Origin: a bacterium
GTDB taxonomy: Bacteria > SM23-31 > JAUVVT01
Length of the DNA stretch: 7,822 bases
Reading direction: 5' to 3'
NCBI GenBank assembly: GCA_030616165.1
Contig: JAUWXV010000177.1
Location: 1 to 7,822 of the forward strand
In this document: positions 394 to 7,471 of the stretch, piece by piece
Numbering within the stretch: position 1 is the first letter of the stretch
Layout: each line of letters starts with the position of its first letter
The notes under the pieces: model-generated
Told to the model about the DNA's origin: nothing
What the model saw: the letters and a program-made list of their open reading frames with translations, nothing else
Database searches by the model: none
Translations under genes and position numbers: made by a program

Positions 394-1812
394 ATGAAGG
401 TTGTTCTATTTCCAACTCCAGTAATGGATTACGAACAGGGCGAACTCAGACCTATCGGTTATGACGCATCGCGGGAATGCCCTCCATATGGCATCTATCT
501 CCTCGCGACCATCCTGAGTCATAATGGCCATGAAGTTGTAGTTGCAGATTTGATTGCAGAGGGAACAAGCAGCATTGCCAAATACTCTAACCAGTTGAAG
601 GACTGTAAGCTCGTGGGTATCTCAGCCACAACCCTTTCTTGGCCGACCGCCATTGAAGTGATCTTACAGGTGAGAGAATCCGTGCCACAAATTCCCATAG
701 TCATCGGGGGAGTCCATCCGACGATGTTCGCCGAATACATCGTGCGGTCATTTCCTGTGGATTATGTTATAAGGGGTGAAGCCGAGGGCATTCTTCAAAT
801 GCTTTGTGAAGCAATAGAGCGAAAATCAACCTTAGAAAACATCCCCAGCCTTGTCTGGCGATCACCTGATGGTAGAATAATCTCAAATCCGAAAGCGGGA
901 CGCTTGACAAGTGACGAACTCTCTAGATCGACTGCCACGGATTACTCGATCCTTCCAAGGGGCATATACAAGGGCTTATCCATCGAGTCTTCTCGCGGGT
1001 GCCGATTTAATTGCTCCTTCTGCAGTGCAACATATAGACGGAAATGGGTTCCACTTAAACCTGATCGGTTTGTGCAAAATCTCGAACGTACAACAAATTA
1101 TATATATCACACAAAACTCAGGATCTTTTACATTATTGACGACAACTTCTCTTCTGATCCACACCGCTGCATTGAAATCGCAAGCAAGTTAAGGGACCGC
1201 GGTTTGCGTCCGCGCTTAACATATGACTCCCGTGTTAATGAACTGCTTTACGATGGATTCTTGGACAATATGTCCGAGTTCACCCACCAAATGCTAGTCG
1301 GAGCAGAATGTGGGTACGATGAAGGTCTTGCCAAGATAGGTAAAGGCACAACAACAAAAAAAATAGAGAGTGCTGCTAGGGCATTGTCAGAGCACGGTCT
1401 TGCATCACAAGCTGACTTCTCCTTCATAATTGGCCTTCCGTGGGAAAGCAAGACAGAAATATTGAAGACGCTGATGTTCGCAGCCAATTTGCTTGCTGAC
1501 TATGGTGTTCGAATCTTAATACAGTGGTATGTCCAAATGCCTACCTCGAGGATTTGGGTCGAGGACAGAAGGAAACAAGTCGTCCACGAGGCCATGTACG
1601 ATCGTTATGGCTTCTTCCGGAATCTCTATCTCTTTCGCACAGCAAATCATCTCTTACCATCTGACATATGGGAAATCTCCAGAGCAATAGAAGCATCAAA
1701 GGTTTTAAGTCGATTACGATATCCGAAAAAGCAAATGATTGAACATTCGTTACCTTTACAGATATACGAAAACTTTCCTGAGAACAGACTTGAATCCATC
1801 ACCATTAACTGA
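394..1812 (+). CDS. Cobalamin-binding-type radical SAM enzyme, probable RiPP-modifying enzyme
   Basis: This 472-residue protein has the two-part layout of class B (B12-dependent) radical SAM enzymes. Residues 1-140 form a Rossmann-like B12-binding domain, with PPYGIYLLATILSHNGHEV at 30-48, the signature GGVHPT at 105-110 and the edge motif YVIRGEAEG at 124-132. A radical SAM barrel follows, with the [4Fe-4S] triad C203-xxx-C207-xx-C210 (RGCRFNCSFC). Downstream, IIDDNFSSDP, LTYDSRVNE and VGAECGYDE are the usual barrel strands. Family members cleave S-adenosylmethionine to a 5'-deoxyadenosyl radical; many use methylcobalamin to methylate unreactive carbons. The gene ends 42 nt before a RiPP-leader-like protein, so I infer that this protein is its substrate. 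The ATG has only a weak AGCAGG site at 383-388. A ladderane/hopanoid-type or other small-molecule role is the main alternative. The family call is firm; the substrate is inferred. Confidence 0.9.
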   Translation: MKVVLFPTPVMDYEQGELRPIGYDASRECPPYGIYLLATILSHNGHEVVVADLIAEGTSSIAKYSNQLKDCKLVGISATTLSWPTAIEVILQVRESVPQIPIVIGGVHPTMFAEYIVRSFPVDYVIRGEAEGILQMLCEAIERKSTLENIPSLVWRSPDGRIISNPKAGRLTSDELSRSTATDYSILPRGIYKGLSIESSRGCRFNCSFCSATYRRKWVPLKPDRFVQNLERTTNYIYHTKLRIFYIIDDNFSSDPHRCIEIASKLRDRGLRPRLTYDSRVNELLYDGFLDNMSEFTHQMLVGAECGYDEGLAKIGKGTTTKKIESAARALSEHGLASQADFSFIIGLPWESKTEILKTLMFAANLLADYGVRILIQWYVQMPTSRIWVEDRRKQVVHEAMYDRYGFFRNLYLFRTANHLLPSDIWEISRAIEASKVLSRLRYPKKQMIEHSLPLQIYENFPENRLESITIN

Positions 1813-1813
1813 A

Positions 1814-1832
1814 TCTTGCCTATTGGGCAAGA
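1814..1832 (+). promoter_or_regulatory. Intercistronic hairpin between enzyme and precursor genes
   Basis: TCTTGCC (1814-1820) pairs perfectly with GGCAAGA (1826-1832) around a 5-nt loop. It starts directly after the enzyme's TGA and ends 9 nt before the precursor's Shine-Dalgarno sequence. No T-run follows, so it is not a classical terminator. It could protect a processed precursor mRNA from 3' exonucleases or separate the translation of the two genes. That role is inference. Confidence 0.45.
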
Positions 1833-1840
1833 ACAAAGAA

Positions 1841-1849
1841 AAGGAGGTG
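1841..1849 (+). promoter_or_regulatory. Near-perfect Shine-Dalgarno of the precursor gene
   Basis: AAGGAGGTG matches the anti-Shine-Dalgarno consensus over nine bases and lies 5 nt before ATG 1855. It fixes that ATG as the start in preference to the in-frame TTG at 1816. It is much stronger than the site before the enzyme gene, as expected if many substrate copies are made per enzyme. Confidence 0.85.
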
Positions 1850-1854
1850 TAACT

Positions 1855-2199
1855 ATGCAAAACAAACGCATTGTCCACGAAGAAAAGAAAGAGGAGCGAT
1901 TGTCGCGTGTAAAGTTTCGCGAACTCTTGGGCAGGACTCTGCAAGACAGATCATTTCTGGGTCTTTTGGAATCGGACCCAAAGGGTGCACTTGAAACAGT
2001 CGGAATTGATATTGACGACAAGGAGGTACTTCAATATCTCAAGGAGCATCTCAAAATAAGTGAAGAGGCTCTTTTAGCCGATGGGCAGGCCAAGAAAATT
2101 TTGGCAGTTGCAACGGGCGCTAGCATTGTGGTTGCAGTCTCGACGCCCGCTTTCCCAAAAGGCGAAGAGGACGAAAAATCGCAAGGAAAAGGGAAATAG
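1855..2199 (+). CDS. Putative RiPP precursor with NHLP/Os1348-type leader
   Basis: The protein has 114 residues. Residues 1-20 are charged. Residues 21-66 carry the pattern of nitrile-hydratase-like leader (NHLP-clan) precursors: a helix with LLGRTLQDRSF, then the hallmark LLESDPKGALETVGIDI at 37-53 (compare the family pattern LL-x-DP-xx-AL-xx-AGI), then an acidic helix (VLQYLKEHLKISEEALL). Residues 82-100 are hydrophobic and small (ILAVATGASIVVAVSTPAF), and 101-114 form a polar tail rich in Gly, Lys and Glu. No nitrile hydratase catalytic segment (Cys-rich metal claw) is present, and the protein has only this one domain. In proteusin- and Os1348/Franean1_4349-like systems such leaders recruit radical SAM or other enzymes to the C-terminal core. 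With a B12 radical SAM gene immediately upstream, a RiPP substrate is the best reading. The core boundary, the modified residues and the cleavage site cannot be read off. Alternatives are a small membrane-associated protein or a regulator of the enzyme. Confidence 0.72.
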   Translation: MQNKRIVHEEKKEERLSRVKFRELLGRTLQDRSFLGLLESDPKGALETVGIDIDDKEVLQYLKEHLKISEEALLADGQAKKILAVATGASIVVAVSTPAFPKGEEDEKSQGKGK

Positions 2200-2212
2200 A
2201 TGTGCAGTAATC

Positions 2213-2490
2213 TGGGGACAGCATACATATTTATTGATTTTCGGGTTGAATTTTTGTATATTTTTTTATGGCAAGAATTGCAAGAGTGGTTGTTCCGGAA
2301 TGTCCCCACAATGTTACACAACATGGCAACCGCCAGCAGGAGACATTTTTTTGTGAGAAAGATTATGGATTTTACATAAATCTTATAGAGGAATGGTGTT
2401 CTTAACATGGAGTTGAGGTGTGGGCATAATAAAACTTAAAAAAGCGGGAAGAAAGCTTAAGCAGCAGAAATAATAGGTATGGTGTCCCCA
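2213..2490 (+). mobile_element. Internally deleted RAYT/IS200-like element with inverted ends
   Basis: The ends TGGGGACAGCATAC (2213-2226) and GTATGGTGTCCCCA (2477-2490) are inverted copies matching at 13 of 14 positions. Between them lie an N-terminal transposase piece and a short basic C-terminal piece in another frame (see the pseudogene entry). At 278 bp the element is far too short for a full RAYT gene, so it is a decayed or MITE-like derivative. I saw no target-site duplication, which fits Y1 (HUH) transposases. It begins 14 nt after the precursor stop and may have cut off an original downstream part of the operon. Confidence 0.75.
2268..2473 (+). pseudogene. REP-associated tyrosine transposase (RAYT, Y1_Tnp) remnant
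   Basis: From ATG 2268 the frame reads MARIARVVVPECPHNVTQHG and continues to EEWCS before TAA at 2403-2405 (45 codons). This is the conserved N-terminus of RAYT/IS200-like transposases, which normally read MARxxRxxxPxxxHHVTQRGNR. After the stop the same frame continues HGVEVWA (2406-2426), the normal next segment, and then stops again. The HUH motif (usually MPNHVHL) and the catalytic Tyr are missing. At 2432-2473, in a different frame, KLKKAGRKLKQQK and a TAA resemble the basic C-terminal tail of the family and end just before the right inverted end. One large internal deletion plus a nonsense mutation explains the whole arrangement. The gene is not functional. Confidence 0.8.
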
Positions 2491-2503
2491 TATTATTTGA
2501 TTG

Positions 2504-2509
2504 TATAAT
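2504..2509 (+). promoter_or_regulatory. Possible -10 box ahead of the membrane protein gene
   Basis: A perfect TATAAT lies 65 nt upstream of the TTG start at 2575, just outside the RAYT remnant. No convincing -35 hexamer sits at 16-18 nt, and the background is A+T-rich, so this is only a candidate. Confidence 0.25.
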
Positions 2510-2574
2510 AAACGAATAATCATTAAGTTAATTATTAATTAGGTAACTGGGAACAGACACTTTAAGGAAAATAA

Positions 2575-3273
2575 TTGTTAGAGAAGGATAAATTAGCAAA
2601 CTATCTTTGGATTGGTCCATTCTACTTTCTGTCAGTAGGTGTACTATATATGTGGGGCTATTGGCCAAATTTTGGAGTTAACATATTTGAGTATGTTTCT
2701 CTTTCAGATATAATTAGAGTCGCGATCATACCCGTTGGTTCAGTTTTCATATTCGTACTTATTGGCTTCTGTTTAGGAGAGACAACTGTAGCTGACATAT
2801 TACCTAAAAGCGGTGGTAACAAAACTATTATAGGTCGCTTCCTAAATAAGATCAAGTGGCTTCTAATCCTTATTTATGCCGCTGTAGTATTTATCTTAAT
2901 TTTTTATCCAGTTCCAAATAAGTGGTTTGTTCTTCCTACACTTTTAATGTTGCCTTTTTACCTTCCTTTGAAGGGTGCTGGCTTTCTTAGCGAAATTAAA
3001 AATGACAGTATAAGATCTATCATAATTATAGCCACCATAGCGCTACCTTTATATTCGTATGCTATAGGTAAAATAAACGCTGATAAAATCCTTAGAAACA
3101 CAGATTATCAATATATGGAGCTTGTCAAGGAAGGTAAGAAACAAAGATTGAAATTCTTAGGATACGCAAACCAGTATGTCTTTTTGCTTTCTATGAACAA
3201 TCAAGACCTTGTTATATCTAAAATAGACAAGGTTAGTCCTATGTATTTGCACTATAGAGAATCTGGAAAGTAA
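2575..3273 (+). CDS. Uncharacterised five-helix integral membrane protein
   Basis: I do not recognise the family. The 232-residue protein has about five membrane segments, near residues 10-30, 46-68, 94-112, 117-135 and 147-164. A basic soluble tail (165-232) follows, with a strand-rich part (RLKFLGYANQYVFLLSMNNQ) that could be a small beta domain. There is no signal peptide beyond the first helix and no catalytic motif. The start is TTG, 4 nt after AAGGAAA (2564-2570); the next in-frame ATG would remove most of helix 1, so TTG is preferred. The stop lies 17 nt before an attC-like site in the same orientation, so the gene may be an integron cassette, and orphan membrane proteins of this size are common cassette cargo. 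It lies between mobile-element traces on both sides. Coding is well supported; the function is unknown. Confidence 0.8.
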   Translation: MLEKDKLANYLWIGPFYFLSVGVLYMWGYWPNFGVNIFEYVSLSDIIRVAIIPVGSVFIFVLIGFCLGETTVADILPKSGGNKTIIGRFLNKIKWLLILIYAAVVFILIFYPVPNKWFVLPTLLMLPFYLPLKGAGFLSEIKNDSIRSIIIIATIALPLYSYAIGKINADKILRNTDYQYMELVKEGKKQRLKFLGYANQYVFLLSMNNQDLVISKIDKVSPMYLHYRESGK

Positions 3274-3290
3274 AGAACTGATGAAGAGAA

Positions 3291-3364
3291 ACCTAACAAG
3301 AGGATGAAAAAGGACGGGCAATAGCCTATCGGCTCTTACGCACCTTTTAGTCGCGTTGTTAGAC
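3291..3364 (+). other. attC-like integron recombination site
   Basis: The left end ACCTAAC (3291-3297) fits the attC consensus RYYYAAC, and the right end GTTAGAC (3358-3364) fits GTTRRRY. CTAACAA pairs with TTGTTAG, the inner AAAAGG pairs with CCTTTT, and a terminal AGCC-TATC-GGCT hairpin completes an imperfect 74-nt fold, within the usual attC length range. The inner L boxes pair poorly, which suggests degeneration. Orientation and position (17 nt after a gene's stop) match a gene cassette. No integrase, attI or second attC is in the window, so this would be a lone cassette or a look-alike repeat. Confidence 0.55.
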
Positions 3365-3373
3365 TTATTTTGG

Positions 3374-3414
3374 TAAAATGATAAATAATTATAATTAAGA
3401 AATTAATCATTTTA
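3374..3414 (+). terminator. Weak A+T stem-loop, possible terminator
   Basis: TAAAATGAT (3374-3382) is complementary to ATCATTTTA (3406-3414) with a 23-nt loop, and a T6 run follows within 8 nt (3422-3427). The stem has a single G-C pair, so it would be a poor intrinsic terminator. It lies where transcription of the membrane protein gene would be expected to end. Confidence 0.25.
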
Positions 3415-3599
3415 TTGGTAGTTTTTTAAAAATGTGAAACACTTAAAAAAAGTGGGTAATTTGATTATATAATACTTTATATGAAATTTCTCCTCTTGGT
3501 AGTCTGTTTATCAGAATCCTATCTTTTTTATATACAAACAATTTTTTTATAATTAAAATGAGGGTGGTGAAAAGGTAGAATGAAGATTTAATTTGATGC

Positions 3600-3693
3600 G
3601 AGATTGCCACGTCGCTTCGCTCCTCGCAACGACAGGTGAGAGGGAAATTGACATGTCGTCCCCCGAGTACTCGGGGGACTCCTCGCAATGACA
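3600..3693. repeat. Dispersed palindromic repeat (CEERSDVAI-type)
   Basis: The motif CTCCTCGCAAYGACA occurs twice (3620-3634 and 3679-3693). Between the copies lies a perfect 22-nt palindrome (3658-3679) centred on GAGTACTC with C5/G5 arms. GAGATTGCCACGTCGCTTCG at 3600-3619 is typical of a widely dispersed noncoding repeat whose spurious translation contains CEERSDVAI. Its G+C-rich stems stand out from the A+T-rich surroundings. It may act as an mRNA-end hairpin; no gene is involved. Confidence 0.7.
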
Positions 3694-3844
3694 TTTTATT
3701 TTTTAAATTTTAGTAAAACATCCGATTTTTTTGGAAATTATTATTACCGTATCGCAATTTTCAGGTTTAATATTACATCTGTAAACAGCAAAACTATAAA
3801 ACCTGTTCCCTGACTATCAGATATTCAATAACAATATTAAGTAT

Positions 3845-4465
3845 TTATTTCCCAGATATTGGTGTTAGAATCTCCACTGGAACATTGCAGAGACTTTTAA
3901 ATCTTTCTGCATTGTTCTTTGAACCCACGACAGAACCAAAATGCATTGGTATAGCCAATTGTGGTTTAATAAGGTTCGCTGCATCAGCCGCTTCTTCGGC
4001 AGTCATAGTATAGGTACCGCCAACTGGCAGTAAAACTATATCCGCTTTTATATCTCCCACCACAGGAATCTTATCAGTATCTCCAGCATGATATATCCTT
4101 TTATTATTCACTATTACAATATATCCAACCCAGTTATTCGACTTCGGATGGAATCTTTTATTAATATTATATGCGGGAACGGTCTCGATATTTATTCCCC
4201 CTACGGTAATTTTATCGCCGGGTTTCACAGTTTTAATATTACCAGACAGATTAGATTTGCAGTCGGGTGTTGCAACAATAACTGTATTACTTTTTTGTAT
4301 TTTCTTTACATCAGGAGGTGAGCAGTGGTCAAAGTGCGAATGAGTAATTAGAATTATATCTGCCTTTTCATACTCTCCCTTTAATTGATAAGGGTCAATA
4401 TAAATAATTTTTTCTCCAGCAATTTTAAAACTGGCATGCCCAAGCCAATTCAAATTCTCTAACAT
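3845..4465 (-). CDS. MBL-fold metallo-hydrolase (Lactamase_B_3 / UlaG-like)
   Basis: With the ATG at 4465 the protein has 206 residues, close to the usual size of small MBL-fold hydrolases. WLGHASFKI at 7-15 and IDPY at 23-26 are the family's N-terminal strands. The zinc motif HxHxDH is intact (THSHFDHCSP; H42, H44, D46, H47). Further metal ligands are H126 and D129 in HAGDTD, and H175 in PMHFGS. These enzymes use one or two metal ions to hydrolyse phosphoester or lactone-type bonds; the substrate here is unknown. A GTG at 4486 would add seven residues, but ATG 4465 has the better AAAGGAAA site upstream. The frame stays open to 4573, and an out-of-frame signal-peptide start at 4590 suggests the gene was, or is, longer (see the next entry). 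No partner gene is evident. Confidence 0.9.
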   Translation of the reverse strand: MLENLNWLGHASFKIAGEKIIYIDPYQLKGEYEKADIILITHSHFDHCSPPDVKKIQKSNTVIVATPDCKSNLSGNIKTVKPGDKITVGGINIETVPAYNINKRFHPKSNNWVGYIVIVNNKRIYHAGDTDKIPVVGDIKADIVLLPVGGTYTMTAEEAADAANLIKPQLAIPMHFGSVVGSKNNAERFKSLCNVPVEILTPISGK

Positions 4466-4482
4466 TTTTGTTGTTTCCTTTC

Positions 4483-4590
4483 TCACTTTTTCTTCTTTTT
4501 GCGGATTTGCTTTTTGCCCCCCAAGAGTAAAATAACAAAAAAAAACAGGACAGAAAACAATATTAAATTGTTTTTAAAAAATGTATTCAT
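4483..4590 (-). other. Out-of-frame signal-peptide start of the MBL gene (one-base frameshift)
   Basis: An ATG at 4590 follows a run of G residues (AGGGGGG, about 8 nt upstream) that would serve as a strong ribosome site. The frame reads MNTFFKNNLILFSVLFFFVI and then LLLGGKK, a classic signal peptide, before poly-Lys and TGA at 4483-4485. The MBL frame is open across the same stretch (GGQKANPQKEEKVRKETTKM, then LENLNWLGH). A single extra G in the G6 run at 4517-4522 would fuse the two into one secreted MBL protein of about 249 residues. Causes could be an assembly error in the homopolymer, a real frameshift, phase variation, or -1 slippage at CAAAAAG just after the G run. Confidence 0.6.
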
Positions 4591-4641
4591 ATTTAATTCC
4601 CCCCTACGATTAAACTTAGAAAAATATAGTAAATTTTTAAA

Positions 4642-4650
4642 ATTATAACA
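4642..4650 (-). promoter_or_regulatory. Extended -10 promoter ahead of the MBL gene
   Basis: Read on the - strand the sequence is TGTTATAAT, which is TGn plus a perfect TATAAT. It lies 52 nt upstream of the ATG at 4590. The -35 position at 17 nt holds ATCAAA, a weak match. Its position upstream of 4590 fits the idea that the transcript includes the signal-peptide start. Confidence 0.4.
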
Positions 4651-4760
4651 AGACTTTTGAAAATTTTGATAAACTCATTATTTTACGTATTTATATTGGA
4701 ATTCTCAATTGGAAAATTTAATTTATTACTATATAATAAGTTACAAGGACGCTAAAAATT

Positions 4761-4866
4761 AACTGCCTAATAAAATTTTCGATACTTGTTAATATTGAAC
4801 ATACAGTATCTAAAATTAGAAATTTTTCTTTAAAATCACCCTTTTTTTATGAGTTATTAGGCAGTT
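4761..4866. repeat. 13-bp inverted repeat bounding a 106-bp A+T-rich unit
   Basis: AACTGCCTAATAA (4761-4773) is perfectly complementary to TTATTAGGCAGTT (4854-4866). A T6 run (4865-4870) overlaps the right end, which would make it terminator-like on the + strand, although the 80-nt loop is long. It could be a MITE-like element or a small structured RNA. No coding frame lies inside. Confidence 0.5.
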
Positions 4867-4906
4867 TTTTAATCAATTACCTATTTCCTTATTCTTTTTC
4901 ATTAAC

Positions 4907-4924
4907 CCCTCGATAAATCGAGGG
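4907..4924. repeat. Hairpin CCCTCGAT-AA-ATCGAGGG
   Basis: A perfect 8-bp stem with a 2-nt loop. Its left flank, CATTAACCCCT preceded by a T-rich run, is shared with the larger hairpin at 4988-5021, so both probably belong to one repeat family. It lies in the gap between the aldo/keto reductase and MBL genes. Confidence 0.6.
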
Positions 4925-4948
4925 ATTGATAGAACAGAATCGCACATT

Positions 4949-4972
4949 TTAAAACCGTTAAAACGGTTTTAA
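4949..4972 (-). terminator. AACCGTT hairpin, possible terminator
   Basis: An 11-bp perfect stem (TTAAAACCGTT with AACGGTTTTAA) around a 2-nt loop. On the - strand it lies 56 nt after the aldo/keto reductase stop and its right arm ends in TTTTAA, a short U tract. It could act in tandem with the hairpin nearer the gene. On the + strand it also ends in TTTT, so direction is uncertain. Confidence 0.4.
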
Positions 4973-4987
4973 TGGTGACTTTTTGCT

Positions 4988-5021
4988 TCATTAACCCCTA
5001 ACTGAAGTTAGGGGTTAATGA
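4988..5021 (-). terminator. Strong 16-bp hairpin just after the aldo/keto reductase stop
   Basis: The left arm TCATTAACCCCTAACT and right arm AGTTAGGGGTTAATGA pair perfectly over 16 bp with a 2-nt loop. It begins 7 nt after the stop codon of the reductase on the - strand. No U tract follows immediately on that strand, so it is more likely an mRNA-3'-end stabiliser or a repeat copy than a classical intrinsic terminator. Confidence 0.5.
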
Positions 5022-5028
5022 GAAAAAA

Positions 5029-6333
5029 TTAACAATTTAACGAGAGCATCTTATGAGATTGTAACAATCTTTCCTTGATCGCAATATCGTAAGGGCAGAA
5101 TTTTTGACAGGGGGCATCACAACCGGAACAGTTATCTCCCAGTTTGTCTTTCGGCAGGTTTGAATATTCAGAGACAGCCATTCTCCTATCACCGTAATTT
5201 TCATAATACATTTGAAATCTTAAAATATCATTAACTTGAATACCTTTTGGGCAGTACGAATGGCATAAATCACATCCAACACGACAGTATTTATTCCAGA
5301 TAAAAGCGGTGTAAGTATCGAGAATTTCCTTATCATAATAACCGAATTTTTCTCCTGAAGCAGGCAAAAAAGTATCCACATCATAGAATGTTCTGAAACT
5401 GGCGATCAATGTGCTGACGTGGGGATTAGAAAGAACCCATTTAAATGTACTCCTATTAAAGTCAGCGGTAAATCTTTTCCCAGAATCTACAAATCTATCC
5501 ATTACCGTTCTTTTTCGAGCCACCGGAAGACTTTCAAAATCCTCACCAAGGGGCTGTTTATCCCACCCGGGAAGTCTTTCAAGATATGCCCCCATCCTTG
5601 TCTTCATTGCAACAATCGCTCTTCCTTTTTCGGATAAACTTTTTATATCTTCATTAACATCCTTATTATTTAAATAATTATAAGCAGGTGTAAGGATTTT
5701 CATCGAATCATAATTAAAAAATTGTTTAACAATATTACCCATTCCGGAAGAATGAAAGCTGGCACCTGAATATTTTACCTTTCCTTCCTTTTTTGCCTTT
5801 TTAAAAACCTCGTGCATATCCTCACTTTTCATTCTACTTTCCGAAGCGCCGTGTATAAGGATGGCATCCAGATAATCGGTTCTCAAGTCTTTCAGACTTC
5901 TTTCGAGTGATTCTCTCAGATTTTTTTTGAGTTCTTCCGGATTTTTAACTCGCCACGCCCTCCCGCTATACTTTGTCGTTATAAACACCTCTTTTCTCTT
6001 TTCCTTCAACACCTCACCGATTAATCTTTCTGACTGACCATAAGTTGGAGCTGTATCAATATAATTAACTCCGCAGTCAACTGCATATCTCACCACTGCC
6101 CCATCAGTAATATGAGACGCACCGAAACTTATATCAGAAACTTTAAATCCTGTATTGCCAAGGTTGCGATAACTTTTTATTCTGACCTTTTCTTCCTGCG
6201 TAAGTCTATTTACAAAAAAATTCTTTACCCTGTTGTCTCTCCCTAATCCAAAGAGAACTGAGCCCGCAAAAAAAGTTCTATCTGTAATTTTTCTAAAAAA
6301 ATCTCTCCTTCTTATCTTTTTTAAAAATTTCAT
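5029..6333 (-). CDS. Aldo/keto reductase with C-terminal two-[4Fe-4S] ferredoxin tail, Tat-like signal
   Basis: The protein has 434 residues from the ATG at 6333, which follows GGAGGG by about 4 nt; the in-frame ATG at 6348 would place this ribosome site inside the gene. Residues 1-31 look like a twin-arginine signal (KIRRRDFFRK, then FFAGSVLFGLG), although the hydrophobic part is short. Residues 55-340 form the aldo/keto reductase barrel with the full catalytic tetrad: D93 and Y98 (YIDTAPTYG), K121 (TTKYS) and H161 (ILIHGAS). The C-terminal part has two cysteine sets: C350, C354, C357, C361 and C402, C405, C409, C413, each followed by Pro, as in two-[4Fe-4S] ferredoxins. Family members reduce or oxidise carbonyl or sugar substrates with NAD(P)H; the iron-sulfur tail suggests electron exchange with another partner. 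The substrate is unknown. It appears to be transcribed alone. Confidence 0.92.
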   Translation of the reverse strand: MKFLKKIRRRDFFRKITDRTFFAGSVLFGLGRDNRVKNFFVNRLTQEEKVRIKSYRNLGNTGFKVSDISFGASHITDGAVVRYAVDCGVNYIDTAPTYGQSERLIGEVLKEKRKEVFITTKYSGRAWRVKNPEELKKNLRESLERSLKDLRTDYLDAILIHGASESRMKSEDMHEVFKKAKKEGKVKYSGASFHSSGMGNIVKQFFNYDSMKILTPAYNYLNNKDVNEDIKSLSEKGRAIVAMKTRMGAYLERLPGWDKQPLGEDFESLPVARKRTVMDRFVDSGKRFTADFNRSTFKWVLSNPHVSTLIASFRTFYDVDTFLPASGEKFGYYDKEILDTYTAFIWNKYCRVGCDLCHSYCPKGIQVNDILRFQMYYENYGDRRMAVSEYSNLPKDKLGDNCSGCDAPCQKFCPYDIAIKERLLQSHKMLSLNC

Positions 6334-6380
6334 AGTCCCTCCATACAAAATTAATGTTTCAGTAACTTTAAATCAGTAGG

Positions 6381-6407
6381 GACAACCCTCGGGTTGTCAC
6401 CACGTGG
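6381..6407. repeat. GACAACCC hairpin plus CCACGTGG palindrome
   Basis: GACAACCC (6381-6388) pairs with GGGTTGTC (6391-6398) around a 2-nt loop, followed at once by the palindrome CCACGTGG (6400-6407). GTAGGGACA at the left edge recalls the GGACA arms of the other repeats in this window and suggests a dispersed REP-like family. Confidence 0.55.
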
Positions 6408-6549
6408 TTGTGAAAATTAAACTAAATCCATATATTATAGTTATACTTATTCCGGCAAAAAGATTTAAAAAAAAATTTTGCCCTTTGCCGTTTCATTTTT
6501 CAAAAGAAGAAGACATACTTTCTTTGAAAATCCGGCAGCAAAGAATTGT

Positions 6550-6583
6550 GGACAGACCCCAAGGCAAGCAAGAATGTCTGTCC
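6550..6583. repeat. GGACAGAC/GTCTGTCC inverted repeat
   Basis: GGACAGAC (6550-6557) pairs perfectly with GTCTGTCC (6576-6583) across an 18-nt loop containing two AAGCA/AGGCA-like steps. The arms resemble those of the repeats at 7639-7672 and 7710-7754, and the GGACAG core resembles the ends of the RAYT remnant. Confidence 0.55.
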
Positions 6584-6700
6584 TACTGTCTTTTGTTTCT
6601 AACTCATCCAGAGCATTAGGAATGAATTAGGAATGCTAAAATTTTACCTCTCTTGTTGAGCATAACGGAATTAGAAATTATAAATACTTTCACAAAACCT

Positions 6701-7471
6701 TTATTCGATGCTCTTTCGAATATCAATGTCAATCCAGTAGGCCGGATGGTCAGATATTTTGTTGGGAATCAGTTTTCCTTCAAGAACTGAGTTTCGAAAT
6801 TTTTCCGATACCAGGATGTCATCAATCCCTTCCTCAAGTTTGAGTACTTCTCTTGTGCTGTACAACATCCCTTCCTCAAGGAGAGGTTGAAGCTGCCGAG
6901 ATGGTCGGGTATTGAAATCTCCAACAAGGATAATAGGATGCGATAAATCAACGATAATTTCTCTGATACGCTGAATTTGCAATGCGCGATTCTTCGAGGA
7001 ATATGCACTCAAATGTGTATTTAGAAAAGAAATGGTTACATTATTGATATTAATAGAGGCAATAATGATACCTCGCGGCTCTTTTTCCTCAGGATTGGGC
7101 AGTGCAACATTTTCCGCATCGAGTACGGGATACTTTGAAAGAATTAAATTACCATAGTTCTCTCCGATATTTGGTCCATAAAAAATCTGAAAATTCAGTT
7201 CATCTTTCAGAATTTGCGGCTGGTCTTCATACCGGCTTCGCTCTGAATACCCATTATCAACTTCCTGACAGCCGATAAGTTCTGCCTGATGCTCCCGGAT
7301 AAATCGGGCAATACGTTCTATTTCATAAACCGAGTCAGTACCTTCACCGTGATGTATGTTAAATGTCATAACTCTTAGAGTTTGCTGACCCGGGCCTGTC
7401 GTGCAATTAATGATGAACAGCGAACAAAAAATTGTAAAAAATAATGCAAATAATAAATATCGGTGCTTCAT
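6701..7471 (-). CDS. Endonuclease/exonuclease/phosphatase-family hydrolase, probable lipoprotein
   Basis: This 256-residue protein starts with a signal peptide (MKHRYLLFALFFTIFCSLFI) ending in IINC at 20-23. C23 is a possible lipidated Cys, although Asn at -1 is unusual for a lipobox. The remainder is a compact EEP domain with its conserved motifs in order: MTFNIHHGEG (N38), GCQEVD (E70, metal ligand), FLNTHLS (N151, H153), VGDFNTRP (D185, N187) and ISDHPAYW (D241, H242). These enzymes use Mg2+ to cleave phosphodiesters in nucleic acids, phosphoinositides or sphingomyelin. An exported, lipid-anchored member most likely acts on extracellular or periplasmic phosphodiesters; the substrate is not readable. 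The length fits a domain-only protein. Its ribosome site is weak (CTGGATATTAAC before the ATG). No partner lies within the window. Confidence 0.92.
   Translation of the reverse strand: MKHRYLLFALFFTIFCSLFIINCTTGPGQQTLRVMTFNIHHGEGTDSVYEIERIARFIREHQAELIGCQEVDNGYSERSRYEDQPQILKDELNFQIFYGPNIGENYGNLILSKYPVLDAENVALPNPEEKEPRGIIIASININNVTISFLNTHLSAYSSKNRALQIQRIREIIVDLSHPIILVGDFNTRPSRQLQPLLEEGMLYSTREVLKLEEGIDDILVSEKFRNSVLEGKLIPNKISDHPAYWIDIDIRKSIE

Follow-up and report, generated by a model that had tools for sequence, protein, structure and literature searches.

Contig JAUWXV010000177.1, which over its entire length of 7,822 bases is the window analysed here (contig C208 of the source genome, a 3.74 Mb assembly, G000, that is 90% complete), carries a pair of genes that we regard as a minimal locus for a ribosomally synthesized and post-translationally modified peptide (RiPP). 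The pair consists of a cobalamin (B12)-binding radical S-adenosylmethionine (SAM) enzyme of 472 aa (394-1812, + strand, ATG start, TGA stop) and, 42 nt further on, a gene for a protein of 114 aa (1855-2199, + strand). A sequence-only reading had proposed just this pair with this spacing, and both were borne out; that the window is a whole contig is new. The explanation that we favour, with moderate confidence, is a two-gene RiPP cassette in which the B12 enzyme C-methylates aliphatic residues in the tail of the small protein, as in the polytheonamides. It is very likely that the two genes act together and likely that the small protein is modified after translation, while C-methylation as the main reaction, argued by analogy, is somewhat probable. 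Judged from sequence, the layout is that of a RiPP gene cluster, with a putative precursor (leader and variable core) linked to a modifying enzyme and recurring in four genomes in both gene orders. It is an unusually compact, new form of known peptide natural-product pathways.

The pair is present in four genomes that belong to two distantly related lineages. Two related loci came from scanning named genomes, one in a deltaproteobacterial metagenome-assembled genome (L012) and the other in Blautia caecimuris (L013). Searching 386 genomes with a profile brought in genome G269, and the remaining genomes of the small phylum of G269 (nine genomes) added G386 and G387; this phylum is not that of the window. 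With the window enzyme as query, the enzymes of L012, L013 and G269 score at least 189 bits, and no other enzyme fetched scores above 109. The neighbourhood of the deltaproteobacterial enzyme yielded no precursor. A gene-neighbourhood survey, suggested by the sequence-only reading as a check, finds the same pair in G269, G386 and G387, where a protein of 120-137 aa comes first and the enzyme follows after 168-274 nt, the reverse of the gene order in the window. The neighbours of the pair differ between genomes: in G387 they are genes of the heme pathway and for 2-oxoacid oxidoreductase and acetyltransferase, in G386 an argininosuccinate lyase gene. Both flanks are complete in G387, and no other evident RiPP gene is found there. 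A SPASM gene near that pair was not counted as one; it is closest to the NirJ1 and AhbC heme-pathway models (561 bits, cut-off 650). In G269 the enzyme gene (L093:1483-2871) has an in-frame TGA at the otherwise invariant W218, and the precursor gene is intact; since the gene's own stop is also TGA, the enzyme gene is probably broken at this position.

The relatives have the layout of the tail in common, more than the leader. Residues 82-97 of the window protein, the putative core ILAVATGASIVVAVST (2098..2145, + strand), form a run of 16 residues made up of V, I, L, A, G, S and T alone, with GQAKK just before it; such a run, which the sequence-only reading had not remarked on, was equalled in 1 of 10,000 shuffles, and it aligns with the cores of G269, G386 and G387. 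The core begins within a conserved junction, GQAKKILAV (2083..2109, + strand). The pattern GQ[AG]x(1-3)[ILV][LV]AV, which was composed after inspecting the four precursors, occurs at the start of the tail in all four and in no other of the 5,854 open frames (805,000 residues) in the fetched DNA; of 200,000 shuffled versions of the window protein, only 5 contain it. The core is followed by a charged C-terminal end, PAFPKGEEDEKSQGKGK (2146..2196, + strand), and the PAPEDEQ end of the G386 and G387 precursors resembles it. Between these two relatives the ratio of nonsynonymous to synonymous substitution rates is about 0.13 for the precursor, 0.075 for its core part and 0.11 for the enzyme, so both genes are retained by selection, and the purifying selection on them in the two genomes compared is strong.

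Homologues of the small protein without a radical SAM neighbour would, according to the sequence-only reading, speak against a joint function. A precursor profile run over 385 genomes gave full-length homologues in three, each of them a carrier of the enzyme with the pair, and no orphan precursor was found among the 385. At another locus (L010) a short protein of the Os1348 type does lack a radical SAM neighbour, which is to be expected since this type of leader is common to many systems. No relative turned up in plasmids, phages or viral contigs at the limits applied, and no second precursor was detected in the window's own genome.

The leader is placed at residues 1-76 (1855..2082, + strand), its end being drawn from the conserved junction; it carries LLESDPKGALETVGI and is predicted to be helical from residue 18. 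The sequence-only reading had assigned it to the nitrile hydratase leader peptide (NHLP)/Os1348 type, of which the resemblance stands and the membership does not. The protein matches NF038399 (Os1348) with E 3.2e-5 and 23.9 bits (curated cut-off 40), PF14407 (Franean1_4349-type leader) with E 1.1e-3 and 19.7 bits (cut-off 48) and TIGR04509 (nitrile-hydratase-alpha-like leader) with 15.9 bits (cut-off 34); no other NHLP model was listed. As judged from these profiles the likeness is genuine, yet it lies under every curated threshold. The AlphaFold model is helical at residues 18-96, and Foldseek places Os1348 first (E 0.11), with the proteusins 8tb1 and 9cjx and nitrile hydratases lower, none of them with E below 0.1. 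A second aligner, VIA, ranked clamp-loader helices and other unrelated helical proteins above Os1348, and the likeness in fold is therefore not counted as proof. BLASTP gave no alignment between the window and G387 precursors and the profile comparison was weak, so the homology of the leaders rests on a shared pattern and not on score, and the leader by itself is insufficient to prove that the precursors are homologous. The precursor has no Cys and no Trp.

The domains claimed for the enzyme by the sequence-only reading are present. The B12-binding domain PF02310 covers residues 27-135 (472..798, + strand; 59.7 bits, cut-off 32.1), the Radical_SAM domain PF04055 covers residues 197-362 (43.6 bits, cut-off 29.5), and the cluster-binding triad C203xxxC207xxC210 (1000..1023, + strand) is intact and invariant in the clade. 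This is the make-up of a class-B radical SAM enzyme, and cobalamin binding is predicted. The structure model (mean predicted local distance difference test score, pLDDT, 84.8) matches the folds of B12 radical SAM enzymes: OxsB (Z 27.1, root-mean-square deviation (rmsd) 3.6, 408 residues aligned), AprD4 (Z 27.1, rmsd 3.2, 391 aligned), CysS (Z 25.6, rmsd 3.8, 407 aligned), MgmA (Z 25.5, rmsd 3.3, 367 aligned) and TsrM (Z 24.7, rmsd 3.1, 407 aligned). Among solved structures the top match by sequence is MgmA (PDB 9ccb, E 5e-14, 22% identity). No NCBIfam equivalog fits the enzyme. The top score is for BchE (110 bits, cut-off 481), and HpnJ (82 of 578 bits), HpnR (79 of 650), ApyD (97 of 750) and TIGR04014, used for the comparison with MgmA (65 of 360), are all below their curated cut-offs. 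An identity as BchE, HpnJ or HpnR was dropped, each score being about a quarter of the cut-off or less. The concern that the enzyme might group with hopanoid or bacteriochlorophyll enzymes did not materialize either; it has a clade of its own. In a tree of 125 B12 radical SAM enzymes it forms a group with those of G269, G386 and G387 (support 95 in the Shimodaira-Hasegawa-like approximate likelihood ratio test, SH-aLRT), nested in a clade of nine rows with support 100.

This wider clade also includes enzymes of two gut RiPP clusters. In Blautia caecimuris DSM 29492 (L013:209-5658) two enzymes of the clade share a single RiPP cluster with a further radical SAM enzyme, a PqqD-domain protein and a peptide whose end is EAGIVIVIVVGVAVTGV. 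In a second genome of Blautia's family (G673:C14, L115:4170-9530) a clade enzyme stands with two further radical SAM enzymes, a PqqD protein, the peptide MKKQYQSPTSIKLSGVENEYGAAIGAAAVWAIGIGAVWVW and an adjoining methyltransferase-like gene, PqqD-SPASM being among the radical SAM enzymes of the cluster; the peptide of the G673 cluster ends AAIGAAAVWAIGIGAVWVW. The likeness to the window lies in same-clade enzymes beside short precursors that end in Val/Ile/Ala-rich cores; unlike the window, these clusters have extra radical SAM enzymes and PqqD-domain proteins, and their precursors of about 40-49 aa lack a helical leader. On another contig of the same genome (G673:C13, L116:6827-14321) an unusual cluster of nonribosomal type holds a clade enzyme whose neighbours are a second B12 radical SAM protein and enzymes with adenylation/carrier domains.

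The frequency of small neighbours of this kind was estimated from same-strand small frames with a polar head and a greasy tail, lying at most 700 nt from 118 other B12 radical SAM genes. At a 12-residue hydropathy threshold of 2.6 the window itself was left out, and the control was then run over several thresholds; a value of 2.4 admits the four pairs together with the Blautia locus, and a comparable neighbour occurs at one of the 118 control genes. An unrelated, overlapping frame in the window (2081-2356) scores slightly above the precursor, and the control alone is therefore no proof.

The reading of the pair as a RiPP locus is thus supported by its recurrence, its shared core motif and selection in the relatives, whereas C-methylation, leader docking, cleavage, export, the product and its biological role are what we infer. 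The N-terminal helical, Os1348/NHLP-like leader would dock the substrate on the enzyme and place the tail in it, the Val/Ala/Ile-rich stretch after the GQ junction being the modified core. One SAM would methylate the cobalamin, and a second would yield a 5'-deoxyadenosyl radical that takes a hydrogen from an aliphatic core residue. The methyl group of methylcobalamin could then pass to unactivated sp3 carbons, for example the beta-carbons of Val or Ile, as with PoyC, and the leader would be cut off by a protease encoded elsewhere. There is a precedent in PoyC, which methylates Ile3 and Val5, 10 and 21 (PMC11285071), and a nonribosomal parallel in DscE of discodermin (PMC12858407). MgmA is a peptide methylase whose wide cleft can hold its substrate in extended form (PMC11796369).

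The polytheonamide proteusins (PoyA with PoyB and PoyC) resemble the window pair in their long, nitrile-hydratase-like helical leader, their Val/Ala/Ile-rich core and their class-B radical SAM enzyme. The window locus differs in having two genes, with no epimerase, dehydratase or N-methyltransferase and no Gly-Gly, and its enzyme has Cx3Cx2C where PoyC has Cx7Cx2C. Os1348 itself (Pseudomonas sp. Os17, PDB 6lk7) is the best leader match and first in Foldseek, but the window protein stays under the cut-off of its model. In place of a B12 radical SAM enzyme, Os1348 has as neighbours an acetyltransferase, a SagB-type dehydrogenase and a protein resembling a peptidase (PMC7726476). MgmA, the methyl-coenzyme M reductase glutamine C-methylase, shares the fold with the window enzyme, and its own substrate is a peptide; it differs in being archaeal and in modifying one Gln of a large enzyme. 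By test the pair falls outside both NHLP and rSAM_ocin_1, yet very probably it works like such a system.

A number of observations weigh against C-methylation in a cleaved RiPP. The enzyme lies far under the cut-off of rSAM_ocin_1 (TIGR03975; 56.8 against 281.85 bits), which we take to be the model covering PoyB and PoyC. AprD4, a dehydratase, matches the structure model as well as the methylases do, and by score the leader shows no significant homology to those of the three relatives. One clade enzyme (L114) lies in a cluster like those of nonribosomal peptide synthetases, next to adenylation enzymes and one more B12 radical SAM enzyme, and the clade thus extends beyond ribosomal systems. The 114-aa precursor has no Gly-Gly, the double-glycine cleavage motif that marks NHLP and proteusin leaders (PMC2887384), and no C39 peptidase was found in the source genome, which is 90% complete. 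The window being a complete contig, merely 393 bases are visible upstream of the enzyme gene, and the lack of further tailoring genes, which the sequence-only reading had stressed and which holds at the G387 locus, could here in part be an effect of the contig end.

B12 radical SAM enzymes are not all methylases, and the same RiPP pair could carry out some other radical reaction on the aliphatic core, such as a ring or cyclopropane, a C-C cross-link or a rearrangement. OxsB and AprD4-like folds match equally well, the ApyD model gives the enzyme 97 bits, ortho-tyrosine-forming enzymes of this class work on RiPPs (PMC12257519), and cyclopropylglycine is made from Val by a SPASM enzyme (PMC9062424). 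We consider this unlikely, as methylation is the commonest outcome described for cobalamin radical SAM enzymes (PMC11659888), MgmA, the closest solved relative by sequence, is a peptide methylase, and the window's core offers no Tyr, Trp or Cys. Somewhat less likely still is a small protein that is modified and never cleaved, the product being the whole, permanently modified protein, greasy tail included, in a way comparable to MgmA, which works on a protein. No protease or transporter is linked to the pair, G269 like the source genome has no C39 peptidase, and the charged end is kept in style in G386 and G387; but the leader-core layout is like that of RiPP precursors, cleavage by an unlinked protease is common, and G386 and G387 do carry C39 proteins elsewhere. 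A one-enzyme system with a never-cleaved, perhaps multiply modified, membrane-active or carrier protein, or an undescribed radical reaction on aliphatic residues, is in our opinion a doubtful candidate. An enzyme that produces a small molecule or modifies a lipid, next to a small gene unrelated to it, is very unlikely. BchE is the top NCBIfam score and L114 adjoins adenylation enzymes, but 110 bits is far from 481, and an unrelated neighbour would hardly recur in four genomes, in either gene order, with a core motif that is shared and under selection and with no orphans among 385 genomes.

If the C-methylating cassette is real, a single enzyme together with one short gene is enough to alter unactivated aliphatic carbons in an encoded peptide, and the cluster needs neither an epimerase nor a recognition protein or transporter. 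So small a pair could be rebuilt far more readily than the large cluster for polytheonamides, and it would offer a practical system for studying how B12 radical enzymes select sp3 carbons in peptides. The pair further delineates an enzyme clade that lacks a model of its own and that connects genomes of candidate phyla to clusters of gut Firmicutes.

Ahead of the small gene lies AAAAGGAGGTGTAACTATG, with a strong ribosome-binding site, AAAGGAGGT (1840..1848, + strand). Third-position G+C is 0.46-0.47 in the pair (394-2199) against 0.29-0.36 in the contig's four other genes (2575-7471), which suggests acquisition from elsewhere by horizontal transfer. Just downstream of the pair (2205-2560) there are, by eye, several TGGGGACAG or TGTCCCC-like words that recall transposase-associated repeats, absent from a repeat scan of 2150-3700. 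At 2575-3273 (+ strand) follows a hydrophobic, probably membrane protein of 232 aa with no family above cut-off, and at 5029-6348 (- strand) an aldo/keto reductase is fused to a C-terminal region resembling a 4Fe-4S dicluster domain.
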